Positions 17,145-22,792 of a DNA stretch of 64,000 bases are shown here, in pieces. The stretch lies in contig NZ_CP095757.1 in NCBI RefSeq assembly GCF_023093535.1, positions 1,674,001 through 1,738,000 of the forward strand, written 5' to 3'. Origin of the DNA: Halovivax limisalsi. GTDB lineage: Archaea; Halobacteriota; Halobacteria; Halobacteriales; Natrialbaceae. The position numbers were made by a program, and so were the translations under genes. How positions within the stretch are numbered: position 1 is the first letter of the stretch; every line of letters begins with the position of its first letter. The notes under the pieces were generated by a model. It was not told the origin of the DNA. It worked only from the letters and a program-made list of their open reading frames with translations, and did not search any database.

Positions 17145-18887
17145 ATGACGGGGAGGAGGGACCGGGCCGGACTGTCGCGACGGGAGTACCTGACGGCAGG
17201 CGTCGCCGCCGGCGGGCTCGGCCTCGCCGGCTGTGGCGCGCTGTTGAACCGCGTCGACCCGGACTCGACCGACCAGCTCTCGGTGACGATCACCGCGGTC
17301 CCCGACGACGACGATCGGCAAGTAAACGGGATCTTTACCGACCTCGAGGCGAAGCTGAACGCCGTCGGGATCGACGTCTCGTTCGATCTGCGGATGACTC
17401 ACGAGTTCTACCGCGCGATCTTGATGGAGAACGACTTCGACATGTACGTGGGATACTTCCCGGGTGATCGAACGCTCGATTACCTCTACATGCTGTGTCA
17501 CTCGCAGTTCATCAACGATCCGGGCTGGCAGAATCCCTTCGGGCTGACGAACATCCAGCTCGACGATCACCTCGAGGCGCAGCGTCGAGAGGCGGGCGAA
17601 CGGCGAGCGGAGACGCTCGTGGCCGTCCTCGAAACGCTGGTCGAGACGAAGCCCTTCGTTCCGATCTGCGAGCCGTCGCAGCATCGCGTGGTGACCGATC
17701 AACACTTCGGGGGCTGGCGACCGGACCGGCTGAACTCTAGCCTGGGCTACCTGGGTCTCGAGCAAGTCGGGTCGACCGCCGACATGACCGGCCTCCTCCT
17801 GGACGCCCGGGCGACGCAGAACGTCAATCCGCTCGCCGTGTTCTTCCGCCGGCGCGGGGCGGTCGTCAACCTCCTCTACGATTCGATCGCTCGGTACGTC
17901 GACGGCTCGTTGACGCCCTGGCTCGCGACCGACTGGACGATGGACGAGACGAGCGCCACGGTCACGCTCAGGGAGGACTGTCACTTTCACGACGATGAGG
18001 CGCTCACCGCAGACGACGTCGTCTTCACGTACGACCTGATCGCGGATCTCTCGCTCGGGCGGGCGGAGTCGCCGGTCCCGTCGCCGCGATTCCGCCGAGA
18101 ACGGTCGCTGATCGAGGCCGTCGAAGTGATCGACGACGAGACCGTCGCGTTCCGGTTCGACCGGACCACCGACCCCGTCGGTGACGGGTTGACGATCCCG
18201 ATCCTGCCTCGCCACATCTGGGAGCCCCTCGTCGAGGAGCTCGACGAAGAGACGGCGACGACCGAACCCTGGCTCCGCGACGCCCTCCTCTCGGCGCGGG
18301 ACGAGCGGGTCGGCAGTGGCCCCTACGCCGTCGAGGAACTCGTCGAGCGCGAGGAACTGTCCCTCGTCCGGAACGACGAGCACTTCACGCTGCGCGAGTC
18401 GGTCGACCTGCCCGCGCCGACCGCCGAAACCCTTCGCTTCCTGCCGGCGGCGAACAGCTCGTCGGCGATCGCGATGGTCGAAACCGGCGAAGCGTCGGTG
18501 ACGGTCTCGCCGCTCGAATCGCACGCCATCCCCGACCCGGCGGACCTCGACGGGGCGAGGCTGGTCGAGACGAATTCCAGCGGGTTCTACCACGTCGGGT
18601 TCAACCTCAGGCACGAACCGTTTTCGAACACGAACCTCCGCCGGGCGATCGCCAGCCTGATCGACCGCGAGTGGCTGGTCGCGGACGTCTTCGAGGGCAA
18701 CGCCCGGCCGATCACCGCGCCGCGGTCGGACGCGTTCGAGGACGAACTCGCCGGGCGGTCCGCCCCGGACCGGACGGTCCCGTTCGCCGGCGATAGCGGC
18801 GAGCTGGACGTCGAGGCCGCGCGCGATCGGTTCAGGGAGGCAGGCTTCAAGTACGACGAGGATGGTAGGCTCGTGGTGAACGACTGA
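17145..18887 (+). CDS. Tat lipoprotein of the SBP_bac_5 (peptide/nickel-type) fold, apparently circularly permuted
   Basis: 580 residues. The Tat signal (LSRREYLTAG, Arg12-Arg13) ends in lipobox LAGC (Cys30), so the protein is anchored outside the membrane. Residues about 45-215 resemble the C-terminal half of family-5 solute-binding proteins (start SVTITAVPDD, then AKLNAVGIDVSFDL, NDFDMYVGYFPGD, ETLVETKPFVPIC). Residues about 220-580 resemble the N-terminal half (TQNVNPLAVF, LLYDSIARYVDG, LTPWLATDW, LTADDVVFTYDLI near 283, GSGPYAV, NLRRAIASLIDREWLV). The chain stops at YDEDGRLVVND, exactly where the normal family runs on into the segment found here at the front. The stop overlaps the PAP2 start (TGATG). 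No ABC permease or ATPase is nearby. The ligand is unknown. Confidence 0.85.
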   Translation: MTGRRDRAGLSRREYLTAGVAAGGLGLAGCGALLNRVDPDSTDQLSVTITAVPDDDDRQVNGIFTDLEAKLNAVGIDVSFDLRMTHEFYRAILMENDFDMYVGYFPGDRTLDYLYMLCHSQFINDPGWQNPFGLTNIQLDDHLEAQRREAGERRAETLVAVLETLVETKPFVPICEPSQHRVVTDQHFGGWRPDRLNSSLGYLGLEQVGSTADMTGLLLDARATQNVNPLAVFFRRRGAVVNLLYDSIARYVDGSLTPWLATDWTMDETSATVTLREDCHFHDDEALTADDVVFTYDLIADLSLGRAESPVPSPRFRRERSLIEAVEVIDDETVAFRFDRTTDPVGDGLTIPILPRHIWEPLVEELDEETATTEPWLRDALLSARDERVGSGPYAVEELVEREELSLVRNDEHFTLRESVDLPAPTAETLRFLPAANSSSAIAMVETGEASVTVSPLESHAIPDPADLDGARLVETNSSGFYHVGFNLRHEPFSNTNLRRAIASLIDREWLVADVFEGNARPITAPRSDAFEDELAGRSAPDRTVPFAGDSGELDVEAARDRFREAGFKYDEDGRLVVND

Positions 18888-19777
18888 TGCTCGTCTCGAT
18901 CCTGACCCGGTTGAGCGTCGTCCTCCTCCTGGCAATGCTGGTGGGGGTCGTGAGCGTCATCGGCATCGATCGGTTTCGAGACGGGCTCTCGACGTGGCGC
19001 GAAACGGTGCGGGCGATCACGCCGATCGGGCTCACCCTGGCGACGGTGTTGTCGATCAACAAGATCTCCCGGCAGGCGCTCGTCGACATCTCGAGCCAGT
19101 ACGGACTCCGGCTCGGCGGGCTCTTTTACGACATCGAGGGGCGATTCATCCTCCTCTTCCAGTCGATCGGGAACGAGTGGACTGCGGCCTTCTACTCGTA
19201 CATCTACATCTACGCGTACGTGTTCTTGCTCGCGTTTCCCGTCATCATGTACTTCGTCCTCTCGGACACGCGCACGATTCGCGGCCTGCTGGCGTCGTAC
19301 ACGCTGAACTATACGATCGGGGCCGTCCTCTACGTCGTGGTCCACGCGTTCGGCCCGCGTCAGTACATCGGCGAGGACGTCCGGTGGATGCTCTTCGACT
19401 TCCGGCCGTCGTACCAGTTGCTGACGGCCGAGGTCAACACCTACACCAACGTCTTCCCGTCGCTGCACACCTCGCTCTCCGCGACGGTGCTGCTCTACGC
19501 GGTCCGGACGCACGATCGGTTCCCGCGCTGGACGCCGATCGCGGCCTTCATCGCGGTCAACGTCTGGATCGCGACGATGTACCTCGGGATTCACTGGGCG
19601 ATCGACGTCGTCGCCGGGCTCGTCCTGGCCTGGGGCAGCGTCGCCCTCGCGGATCGACTGGTCGGTCGATTCGACGTCGATCGATTCTTCGACCCCGTCT
19701 GGTTACGCGTGGATCGCCTCTCGAAACGGATCGGTGATCGCGTGAATCGTCGCTTCCGGCGTTTTGGGGGCGGGTAA
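18887..19777 (+). CDS. PAP2-superfamily membrane phosphatase (inositol phosphorylceramide synthase-like group)
   Basis: 296 residues, about six membrane helices from residue 5 to 255, then a basic cytosolic tail (RLSKRIGDRVNRRFRRF). Catalytic motifs of the PAP2_3/Aur1-like group are present: NVFPSLHTSLS (phosphatase motif 2) and MYLGIHWAIDVVAG (motif 3, with the His and Asp of the catalytic pair). The Lys-x6-Arg-Pro motif 1 of classic PAP2 enzymes is not evident, as in the Aur1-like group. Such enzymes move or remove phosphoryl headgroups of membrane lipids on the outer face. It shares one nucleotide with the preceding lipoprotein gene, so translation is coupled. Confidence 0.87.
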   Translation: MLVSILTRLSVVLLLAMLVGVVSVIGIDRFRDGLSTWRETVRAITPIGLTLATVLSINKISRQALVDISSQYGLRLGGLFYDIEGRFILLFQSIGNEWTAAFYSYIYIYAYVFLLAFPVIMYFVLSDTRTIRGLLASYTLNYTIGAVLYVVVHAFGPRQYIGEDVRWMLFDFRPSYQLLTAEVNTYTNVFPSLHTSLSATVLLYAVRTHDRFPRWTPIAAFIAVNVWIATMYLGIHWAIDVVAGLVLAWGSVALADRLVGRFDVDRFFDPVWLRVDRLSKRIGDRVNRRFRRFGGG

Positions 19778-19912
19778 CGCGGGCCGATCCCGTCGGCCGG
19801 TCCGCGCCCGCGACGGGTGCGCCCGGCGCGGCATGGCCCGTGCGACGCCGGCGGGCGCGCACAGAAGGCAATACTGTTATAGGTCCACTCTCGAAGCCTA
19901 CCCATCGCCGCC

Positions 19913-21649
19913 ATGACATCGCACGCCGACGGACCGACGGTTTCCCGTCGGTCCGCCCTCCAAACGGCAGCCGTCGGGACGCTCGCCGCGACGAGCGGGT
20001 GCGTTCGCGAGGTTCGAAACATCGTCCGGCGCGAACCGGATCGATCGCTCTCGCTCTCGATCGCGACGCTTCCGGAGGACGCCGATCCGCCGGCCAACGC
20101 ACTCGCGAAAACGTTCGAATCGGCCCTGTCGGTCGCGGGAATCGACGTCGAAGTCGCGATTCTCTCTCCCGTCGAGTACCGTCGGGAGATCCTGCTCAAT
20201 CACGAGTTCGACACGTTCGTCGGTCCCTATCCGACGGGCATCGATCCGGAGTACCTCTACGAGTCCTTCCACTCGCGCTACGCCGAAGAATCGGGCTGGC
20301 AGAACCCCTTCGGGCTGACGAATCTCCGGTTCGACGAACAACTCGAGGCCCAGCGATCGGCGACCGACACCGCGCGCGTCCAGGCGGTCACGGACGGGCT
20401 GTTTACCCTGGCGAACGAACAGCCCCTGACGCCGCTCTGCCGACCGACCGAGCACCGCCTGGTCAATGCCGATCGCTTCACCGGCTGGGACCGACATCCG
20501 CTCACGGATCGACTGTTCTTCGCCGCGCTGGAACCAGAGGCCGACGTCACCACGCTTCGCGGGCTCCTCACCGATCCGCGCGTGACCCAGAACCTCAACC
20601 CGTTCTCGATCGAGTACCGCGATGGGGGACTGGTCATCGACTTGCTCTACGATTCGCTCGCGGCCCGCGACGGAGACGGGTACGTCCCGTGGCTCGCCGA
20701 GGACTGGGAGTGGGACGGCTCCGTCGCCACGGTCACCCTACGAGACGCCACCTGGCACGACGGCGAACCGGTGACGGCGAGCGACGTGGTGTTCACTCAC
20801 GACTTCCTCGAGGACATGGCGCTCGGGTCGGCCGAGGTGCCGGCCCCTGCGCCGATCTATCGCGGGCGCGCCTCGGCGATCGAATCGGTCGAGGCGAGCG
20901 GTGCTGTGGCGCTCGAACTCGTGGCGGCTGGCGGGATCGAAGCCGCCGAGAGCGCCCTTACCGTCCCGATCTTCCCCGAACACGTCTGGGCGGACCGAAC
21001 CGAGGAGGCGTCGCTGCCGGGCATCGAAACGCCCTCGATCACCGAGGGCGTCGTCACCGACAACGTGCCGCCGGTCGGCAGCGGCTGCTACCGGTTCGAG
21101 GATCGGACCGACGGCGAGTTACTCACGCTCGCTCGAAACGACGAGCACTTCTCGCGGTCGGCGCCGACCCTGCCGACGCCGACGATCGAGACGCTCCGGT
21201 TCGAGGTCGTCTCCAATAGCTCGAACGCGGCCGAGGCCGTCCGGTCGGGACTGGCCGACGTCACCCTCTCGATGATCGAGCCGCGTCTCGTCGACGGACT
21301 CGCTCCCGACCCGCCGGCGTCGATACTCGAAACCGAGGCGCGCTGGTGTTACTGCATCGGGTACAACGCCAGAAGTGGGCCGCTGGGCAATCCGAACTTC
21401 CGGCAGGTGATCGCCTCGCTGGTCGATAAAGCCCACCTCGTCGACGCCGTCTTCGACGGCCACGCGACGCCGATCGTCTCGCCGCTTTCCCCCGAGTGGG
21501 TACCGAGCGCGCTTCGCTGGCGCGGGCGCGATCCGGTGACCCCGTTTCTGGGTCGCGACGGCGAACTCGATACCGACGCGGTCAGGCGAGCGTTCGACAA
21601 CATCGGCTATCGCTACGACGAGGACGGCTCGCTGCTGACCAGAAACTGA
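19913..21649 (+). CDS. second SBP_bac_5-type Tat lipoprotein, same permuted order
   Basis: 578 residues, a paralogue of the gene at 17145. Tat signal VSRRSALQTA (Arg12-Arg13) with Cys30 in ATSGC. It has the same internal order: the C-half-like segment comes first (SLSIATLPED, SALSVAGIDVEVAI, GWQNPFGLTN, ANEQPLTPLC), the N-half-like segment second (TQNLNPFSIEY near 225, LLYDSLAARDGDG, VPWLAEDWEW, VTASDVVFTHDF near 283, PVGSGCYRF, FRQVIASLVDKAHLV). It too ends at RYDEDGSLLTRN. TGTTATAGG at 19874-19882 is a likely TATA box, so this copy has its own promoter. Sequence divergence from copy 1 is considerable, so the duplication is not recent. Confidence 0.85.
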   Translation: MTSHADGPTVSRRSALQTAAVGTLAATSGCVREVRNIVRREPDRSLSLSIATLPEDADPPANALAKTFESALSVAGIDVEVAILSPVEYRREILLNHEFDTFVGPYPTGIDPEYLYESFHSRYAEESGWQNPFGLTNLRFDEQLEAQRSATDTARVQAVTDGLFTLANEQPLTPLCRPTEHRLVNADRFTGWDRHPLTDRLFFAALEPEADVTTLRGLLTDPRVTQNLNPFSIEYRDGGLVIDLLYDSLAARDGDGYVPWLAEDWEWDGSVATVTLRDATWHDGEPVTASDVVFTHDFLEDMALGSAEVPAPAPIYRGRASAIESVEASGAVALELVAAGGIEAAESALTVPIFPEHVWADRTEEASLPGIETPSITEGVVTDNVPPVGSGCYRFEDRTDGELLTLARNDEHFSRSAPTLPTPTIETLRFEVVSNSSNAAEAVRSGLADVTLSMIEPRLVDGLAPDPPASILETEARWCYCIGYNARSGPLGNPNFRQVIASLVDKAHLVDAVFDGHATPIVSPLSPEWVPSALRWRGRDPVTPFLGRDGELDTDAVRRAFDNIGYRYDEDGSLLTRN

Positions 21650-21967
21650 GCGGCCGATCGCTTCGGGCACGCGGCGTTCGAAATGCGCTCCGCCGTCGAG
21701 ACGGTTCTCGGCCGGCGATCGAGCGGTTCGCAGGTCCTGCGACGCGCACGAAGGTTGAAGACGGCGCCCGTCGAACCCGTTCGAAACTCGCGTCGCTTCG
21801 ACCGCCGCGTCGGTCGGCCGAATCGAACGGTGAGTCGCTCGAATCCGGGCTCGACCGTCCGGGCCCGCCGGCTCACGCCGCGGGTCGGACGGCTGACGCT
21901 CGACGGTCCGACGAACTGCCCGGGCGAGTCCGACGAACTGGCACGATCGTGGGTCACTTTCACGCAG
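21650..21967 (+). other. 318-bp gap inside the second module
   Basis: In the first module the lipoprotein and PAP2 genes overlap; here they are 318 bp apart. The PAP2 frame is open across most of the gap (from 21683), but the predicted extension is an Arg/Ser/Pro-rich stretch without hydrophobic character, unlike the N-terminus of the paralogue, so it is treated as non-coding. No clear promoter was seen. Confidence 0.4.
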
Positions 21968-22792
21968 ATGTTACGGTCCGTCCTGACGAATCTGGTGCTC
22001 GTCGTCGTCGGACTGATCGCGCTCGTCGGCAGCGTCCTGTTCTCCCGGAGCCAGCTCGCCCGGACTCGTCGCGAGTTGCTCGCCCGGCTGCGAGACGCGG
22101 CGCCGATCGCGCTCGTCCTCGGTCTCGTTCTCGTCGCCAACGGGATCGTCCGACAGCACATGGCCGGGCTTTCCTGGATCGTCGGGTGGGAACTCACCTG
22201 GACGTTCTATCAGCTCGAAGGCGGGTTGGTGCCGTGGATCCAGTCGTTTCGGACGCCCGCGCTGACGGCCGTTTTCTCGTACGTCTACGTCTACGGCTAC
22301 GCGTTCTTGCTGGTCTTTCCCGTCGTCGCGTACCTCCTGCTCGCCGACACGCGCCCGCTTCGCGTCCTCCTGACCGCGTACACGATCAATTACACCCTCG
22401 GGCCGCTGGTGTACGTCTTCGTCATCGCCTACGGGCCGCGCAACTTCGCCGCGGAGAGTCTCCTCTACGACGTCTATCCGCAGTACCAGTTACTCACGGC
22501 CGAGGTGAACCGCAACACCAACGTCTTTCCGTCGCTGCACGTCTCCCTGTCGGTGACGGTCGCCGTCGTGGCTTACTGGACTCGCGAGTGCTATCCCGCC
22601 TGGTGGTACCTCGGCGCGCTCGGGAGCGGGTGTATCGCCGTCGCCACGATGTACCTCGGGATTCACTGGGCGATCGACGTCGCGGGCGGCGTCGTCCTCG
22701 CCGCGATCAGCCTCTGGCTGGCCGATCGACTGGTCGACCGCCGATCGCTTGCCGACCGGCTCCGTCGACGGCAGCAGCAATCCGAGGAGTGA
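21968..22792 (+). CDS. second PAP2-superfamily membrane phosphatase
   Basis: 274 residues from the ATG at 21968, chosen because MLRSVLTNLVLVVVGLIALVG aligns with the start of the paralogue at 18887 (MLVSILTRLSVVLLLAMLVG). Six membrane helices; motifs NVFPSLHVSLS and MYLGIHWAIDVAGG are intact. YQLLTAEVN and YVYVYGYAFLLVFPV match the first copy (YQLLTAEVN, YIYIYAYVFLLAFPV). It lacks the basic C-terminal tail of the first copy and ends in a shorter Arg/Gln-rich end. It presumably acts on the same class of lipid phosphate as its paralogue, perhaps with its own lipoprotein partner. Confidence 0.85.
   Translation: MLRSVLTNLVLVVVGLIALVGSVLFSRSQLARTRRELLARLRDAAPIALVLGLVLVANGIVRQHMAGLSWIVGWELTWTFYQLEGGLVPWIQSFRTPALTAVFSYVYVYGYAFLLVFPVVAYLLLADTRPLRVLLTAYTINYTLGPLVYVFVIAYGPRNFAAESLLYDVYPQYQLLTAEVNRNTNVFPSLHVSLSVTVAVVAYWTRECYPAWWYLGALGSGCIAVATMYLGIHWAIDVAGGVVLAAISLWLADRLVDRRSLADRLRRRQQQSEE

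Follow-up and report, generated by a model that had tools for sequence, protein, structure and literature searches.

Two predicted lipoprotein genes in a 64,000-nt stretch of the Halovivax limisalsi genome (the window) raise the question of whether a family-5 solute-binding protein (SBP) can carry its two halves in reverse order and, if so, how that order arises and what the proteins do. The original prediction held that both P0001 (ORF 17145–18887, 580 aa) and P0002 (ORF 19913–21649, 578 aa) are circularly permuted. The pairing with PAP2, the recurrence and the broader distribution described below go beyond that prediction. Our best explanation as a whole, to which we assign a probability of about 0.88, is that they are permuted family-5 lipoproteins of duplication origin, belonging to an SBP–PAP2 two-gene unit.

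Order of the two halves

P0001 and P0002 are 38% identical. By sequence, each has a twin-arginine motif (SRREYL in P0001, SRRSAL in P0002) and a lipobox cysteine (LAGC and TSGC, respectively), and Arg12, Arg13, Gly29 and Cys30 of the P0001 leader are invariant in alignment A1. The C-terminal ends are KYDEDGRLVVND for P0001 and RYDEDGSLLTRN for P0002, with closing residues YDEDGRLVVND and YDEDGSLLTRN; the predicted ORF coordinates and YDEDG-type ends were thus confirmed in the sequence. The parts of both genes, with the evidence for each, are as follows.

17145–18887, + strand: P0001, predicted Tat lipoprotein, circularly permuted family-5 SBP, 580 aa (profile, phmmer, hhalign, AlphaFold2 model)
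17145–17234, + strand: P0001 leader, residues 1–30, with SRREYL twin-arginine motif and LAGC lipobox (sequence)
17277–17774, + strand: P0001 canonical C-terminal part, first in the chain, residues 45–210, equivalent to OppA ∼383–520 (phmmer, hhalign, OppA mapping)
17763–17783, + strand: P0001 junction of old C-terminus and old N-terminus, about residues 207–213 (hhalign; VIA-align puts the old N-terminus at ∼206–212)
17784–18875, + strand: P0001 canonical N-terminal part, second in the chain, residues 214–577, equivalent to OppA ∼50–385 (PF00496, phmmer, VIA-align, hhalign, OppA mapping)
19913–21649, + strand: P0002, second permuted predicted Tat lipoprotein, 578 aa (sequence, PF00496, OppA mapping)
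20048–20545, + strand: P0002 canonical C-terminal part, first in the chain (OppA mapping)
20555–21637, + strand: P0002 canonical N-terminal part, second in the chain (PF00496, searches against solved structures, OppA mapping)

The PF00496 profile (SBP_bac_5) matched the two proteins with 163 and 130 bits, above the gathering cut-off of 32.4, and aligned to each in two stretches; the single collinear match expected of a canonical protein was not seen. The best stretch covers residues 256–574 of P0001 and 257–566 of P0002, on profile positions 2–284 and 2–278 of 368, so the C-terminal part of the profile is absent from the C-terminal end of either protein. In a phmmer comparison of P0001 with 5u4o, query residues 225–519 aligned to chain residues 55–321, and query residues 61–194 to chain residues 376–508. 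Using hhalign, we compared the P0001 family alignment with an alignment of canonical proteins that has E. coli OppA at its head. Residues 40–210 matched the C-terminal part of OppA (probability 98.7%, E = 1.9e-16) and residues 214–576 the N-terminal part (probability 100%, E = 5e-49), which shows that both canonical halves are present. Mapping onto OppA precursor numbering placed residues 45–188 of P0001 on 383–520 and 227–576 on 50–385, and residues 56–203 of P0002 on 385–525 and 235–583 on 49–386, the query numbers here referring to open frames longer than the proteins by 2 (P0001) and 10 (P0002) residues. Homology of P0001 and P0002 to family 5 (cluster C) is certain. Since phmmer, hhalign and the OppA mapping all depart from the canonical N-to-C order of the halves, we file the two proteins as a permuted variant of SBP_bac_5 and not as canonical members, and the predicted permutation is borne out. 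By sequence and by structure prediction, they are family-5 SBPs arranged as leader, OppA ∼383–520 part, OppA ∼50–385 part.

The AlphaFold2 model of full-length P0001 has a pLDDT of 85.7 and a pTM of 0.86, with disorder limited to residues 1–41. VIA-align superposed residues 206–580 on approximately residues 1–360 of the AppA, NikZ and DppA chains (Z ∼19–21.5). Foldseek alignments of the full model were sequence-ordered and of partial coverage, with query TM-scores of 0.34–0.46. Modeled alone, the N-terminal 173 residues (41–213) gave a pLDDT of 62 and a pTM of 0.44, and the matches of this model were weak (Z 3–4), among them YntA 327–450, OppA 405–538 and SapA 392–525. Given this poor isolated model, our assignment of a fold to that part is based on sequence homology together with the full-length model. 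The whole chain is predicted to form the two-lobed family-5 fold in permuted order, an overlay whose exact form we infer.

Poor folding in silico of the isolated piece is what one might expect if residues 45–215 were an unrelated extra domain on a protein that has lost its C-terminal half. Such an arrangement is highly improbable. The piece shows significant profile homology to the C-terminal part of OppA, the phmmer matches come in swapped order, and the homologous piece is C-terminal in closely related sister proteins. Moreover, the full-length AlphaFold2 model is confident over residues 45–215.

In a sample of 391 genomes from class Halobacteria, 270, representing 70 of 86 genera, had matches to P0001 (E of 1e-20 or better), and among the matches listed nearly all are full-length. 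Because the swapped order is kept in full-length matches across so many haloarchaeal genomes, it reflects neither chance nor assembly error. An artefact of assembly or annotation can be dismissed for practical purposes: the collinear full-length matches come from assemblies made independently, many of which are complete genomes, and the permuted form is common to three Archaeoglobus assemblies.

Break site and recurrence of the permutation

The new chain ends fall at OppA precursor positions ∼381–387, which we take to lie inside domain III, and the break is in the domain-III loop after the ...EAGY helix. The permutation presumably shifts the lipid anchor out of domain I and into domain III. 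In each of the 28 permuted proteins that were mapped, the chain is broken in this same loop. For the 24 archaeal proteins, the N-part ends at OppA 376–387 and the C-part begins at 381–406; for the four from Alphaproteobacteria, the corresponding ranges are 380–386 and 391–394. Structural tolerance of the loop would be the simplest reason for its repeated use.

Four of the ten family-5 proteins of the H. limisalsi genome are permuted: P0001, P0002 and two others (L007 and L010; L041 6448–8364, + strand, and L042 7567–9474, + strand), each of the latter encoded in a DppB–DppC–ATPase operon. Twelve haloarchaeal genomes had matches, ∼100 PF00496 rows in all; roughly 32 of the rows end between profile positions 257 and 302, like those of the permuted proteins as judged by end position, and several of them show the profile tail upstream. 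By this measure, about one-third of family-5 matches in the sampled haloarchaeal genomes share the end position of the permuted proteins, and proteins of this kind carry ordinary annotation.

Permuted family-5 proteins also occur in Archaeoglobi and, within a bacterial sample made up of plasmids and searched with a haloarchaeal query (L153), on alphaproteobacterial plasmids of Ketogulonicigenium, Nitratireductor, Roseomonas and Neorhizobium (L231, L232, L233 and L235). These members rule out a restriction of the topology to Halobacteria. In the three annotated alphaproteobacterial records (L231–L233), ABC permease and ATPase genes lie downstream of the permuted gene, whose product is named merely ‘ABC transporter substrate-binding protein’. 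M28/M20 peptidase and hydantoinase genes were also seen near the permuted genes of L231 and L233. Permuted relatives in Dpp/Opp operons of haloarchaea, Archaeoglobi and Alphaproteobacteria presumably serve as import SBPs.

To build a tree, we took the N-terminal parts from 53 permuted proteins and 49 canonical ones and used a quick search; some branches are long. This tree needs 8 changes of topology, a reversal counting as a change too, and 6 of these are forced by starred branches. Holding all permuted proteins together was rejected by the AU test (p-AU = 4.5e-46). For the L010 subfamily, a careful search on rearranged full-length sequences likewise indicated that the permuted members are not one clade (p-AU = 0.0023).

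Close relatives in opposite order were found at several levels of divergence. In Archaeoglobus, permuted copies are present in three assemblies (G490, L152/L219; G529, L167; G482, L168), the latter two 91% identical to that of G490, while canonical copies in four others (L169–L172; G466, G556, G478 and G555) share 84–86% N-part identity with the permuted ones. When an Archaeoglobus pair was compared with blastp, the halves aligned crosswise, with 86% and 83% identity, and the leader still matched. At 84–86% identity between permuted and canonical orthologues, one permutation event is recent. The canonical form is the majority in Archaeoglobi and likely ancestral there. In G490, the permuted DppA-type gene lies divergently beside DppB, DppC and DppD genes; next to the canonical copy of G466, a comparable Dpp operon was not evident from ORF sizes. 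Other sister pairs in opposite order are L135/L138 (55%/58% identity) and L225 (2722–4701, + strand, permuted, from a congener) versus L006 (canonical, from H. limisalsi), with 46% and 37% identity.

These trees and pairs show that permutation at the same loop arose several times in archaea, a single origin being rejected. The break is identical across all clades, and the PAP2-linked family of P0001 and P0002 forms one clade in the tree, all permuted; both features fit a single ancient permutation inherited vertically without recurrence. That history is nonetheless very unlikely, in view of the AU results, overall and within one subfamily, and of the Archaeoglobus orthologues that exist in both orders.

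Circular permutation by duplication is generally modeled as tandem duplication, fusion and terminal loss. Applied to family 5, an SBP gene would be duplicated in tandem, and the copies would fuse in frame to give N–C–N–C. Loss of the N-part next to the leader and of the terminal C-part would follow, with the leader retained. The retained leaders, complete halves and short junction of the permuted proteins fit this course, and sister pairs in both orders add support. So does one extant fusion: a single frame in genome G002 (L230, 1614–6359, − strand) encodes leader, N, C, linker, N and C, the intermediate expected on the duplication route. An origin of P0001 and P0002 by duplication, fusion and terminal loss is therefore likely on comparative grounds. 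What family 5 adds to the general model is that the leader is kept and that the event recurs at one loop. Most known natural circular permutations are old events that happened once and are seen across distant homologues. With orthologues in both orders at such high identity, several events at one loop and a surviving N–C–N–C fusion, both the route through duplication and the reason for the hot spot can be put to direct test.

Relation to known binding proteins

P0001 and P0002 resemble OppA, DppA, AppA and NikA (family 5, cluster C, PF00496) in homology over both halves, in a predicted two-lobed fold and in export, and some permuted relatives also share with canonical members a place in Dpp/Opp ABC operons. 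They differ from canonical family 5 in their swapped halves, in an anchor that presumably sits in domain III, in their pairing with PAP2 and in having no permease gene nearby. Linkage to DppBC/OppBC permease genes, found for other permuted relatives, was not found for the P0001/P0002 family.

A precedent for natural circular permutation of an SBP lipoprotein exists in another SBP class. TpMglB-2 (Tp0684; type Ic/cluster Bc) is naturally permuted and binds glucose (PMC4990184). Its type I/cluster B glucose-binding fold is broken in the N lobe, whereas P0001 and P0002 belong to cluster C, and recurrence at one loop, as seen here in family 5, is not known to have been reported for it. P0001 and P0002 do not belong to type I/cluster B; their homology by PF00496, VIA-align and hhalign is to family 5, cluster C.

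Membrane tethering, an idea raised for TpMglB-2, is no general cause of the swap, because the alphaproteobacterial permuted SBPs have soluble-type signal peptides and no lipobox. Nor need permutation by itself alter binding, if ABC-operon members import as presumed and given that TpMglB-2 binds glucose though permuted.

Searches of solved structures with permuted queries returned only canonical-order chains among the matches listed. In a library of open-access papers, we found no reports of permuted family-5 SBPs or of an SBP–PAP2 unit, TpMglB-2 being the sole relevant match; the novelty of both is accordingly provisional. For protein design, the recurrent break points to a position at which a widely used binding scaffold tolerates permutation.

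The PAP2 partner gene and a possible role

Each of the two SBP genes is followed by a gene for a PAP2 protein.

18887–19777, + strand: P0003, PAP2-family membrane phosphatase (PF14378 match, motif residues)
21968–22792, + strand: P0004, second PAP2 protein; the frame opens at 21683, with the likely start at 21968 (MLRSVLT) (PF14378; start inferred from likeness to P0003)

The P0004 frame thus starts ∼95 codons ahead of its likely true start (21683–21967), and annotation may over-extend it. PF14378 (PAP2_3) matched P0003 and P0004 with E-values of 8e-15 and 5e-14. In an alignment of 99 rows, Gly156-Pro157-Arg158, Pro191-Ser-Leu-His194, His236 and Asp240 of PAP2 are at least 99% conserved. The Arg, PSxH and HxxxD residues conserved in the PAP2 superfamily (PF14378 PAP2_3, PF01569) are present in both proteins, which differ from other members by their coupling to an SBP gene. 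The P0001 stop and P0003 start share one base (TGATG at 18885–18889), and P0002 and P0004 are separated by ∼318 bp.

Scanning a single genome for each species gave 76 loci of the P0001 family, all in Halobacteria and near full length. A PAP2 gene lies downstream on the same strand in 74 of them, and when neighboring ORFs were compared, no family apart from SBP and PAP2 occurred in nearly all loci. Measured by alignment to the P0003 start, no more than 27 bp separate the SBP and PAP2 genes in 94 of 96 pairs, and in 48 the two share one base; on a Haloferax gibbonsii plasmid (L234), the overlap amounts to 4 bp. Weighing against a tight unit, besides the gap between P0002 and P0004, are loci such as L045 that combine two SBP genes with a single PAP2 gene. 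The same neighbor comparison revealed no conserved ABC permease beside the pair across the 76 loci, and a search of viral contigs found no relative. We know of no described SBP–PAP2 unit.

The coupling suggests a non-transport use of the binding protein. The active site of the PAP2 superfamily usually faces outward. The SBP lipoprotein could capture an extracellular ligand and present it to, or control, this outward-facing site, instead of delivering it to an ABC permease. Candidate PAP2 substrates would be prenyl or lipid phosphates, or phosphorylated envelope precursors. We regard such a functional link as a real possibility, at somewhat under even odds.

P0001 and P0002 might instead be ordinary ABC importer SBPs that use a permease encoded elsewhere, with the PAP2 neighbor incidental. 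L007 and L010 of the same genome sit in DppBC–ATPase operons, as do the alphaproteobacterial proteins in theirs, and permeases are commonly shared among Dpp systems. We consider this explanation unlikely, though far from negligible, as PAP2 linkage extends across Halobacteria with gene starts overlapping or nearly so, and no ABC permease is conserved at these loci. Returning to the SBP–PAP2 link, we tentatively propose, as rather less than an even bet, that family 5 repeatedly permutes at one domain-III loop via fused duplicates, and that one haloarchaeal clade left ABC transport to serve as the ligand-capturing subunit of an SBP–PAP2 pair.

Genes for an aryl-sulfate sulfotransferase, a phosphoglucosamine mutase, a DegT aminotransferase and a Gfo/Idh protein lie near the pair on the H. 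gibbonsii plasmid, giving that neighborhood a surface-polysaccharide flavor. MscS-type channel genes are found near the pair in L091 (5230–6750, − strand) and L101 (3602–4561, + strand), and similar ORFs occur in ∼40 loci.
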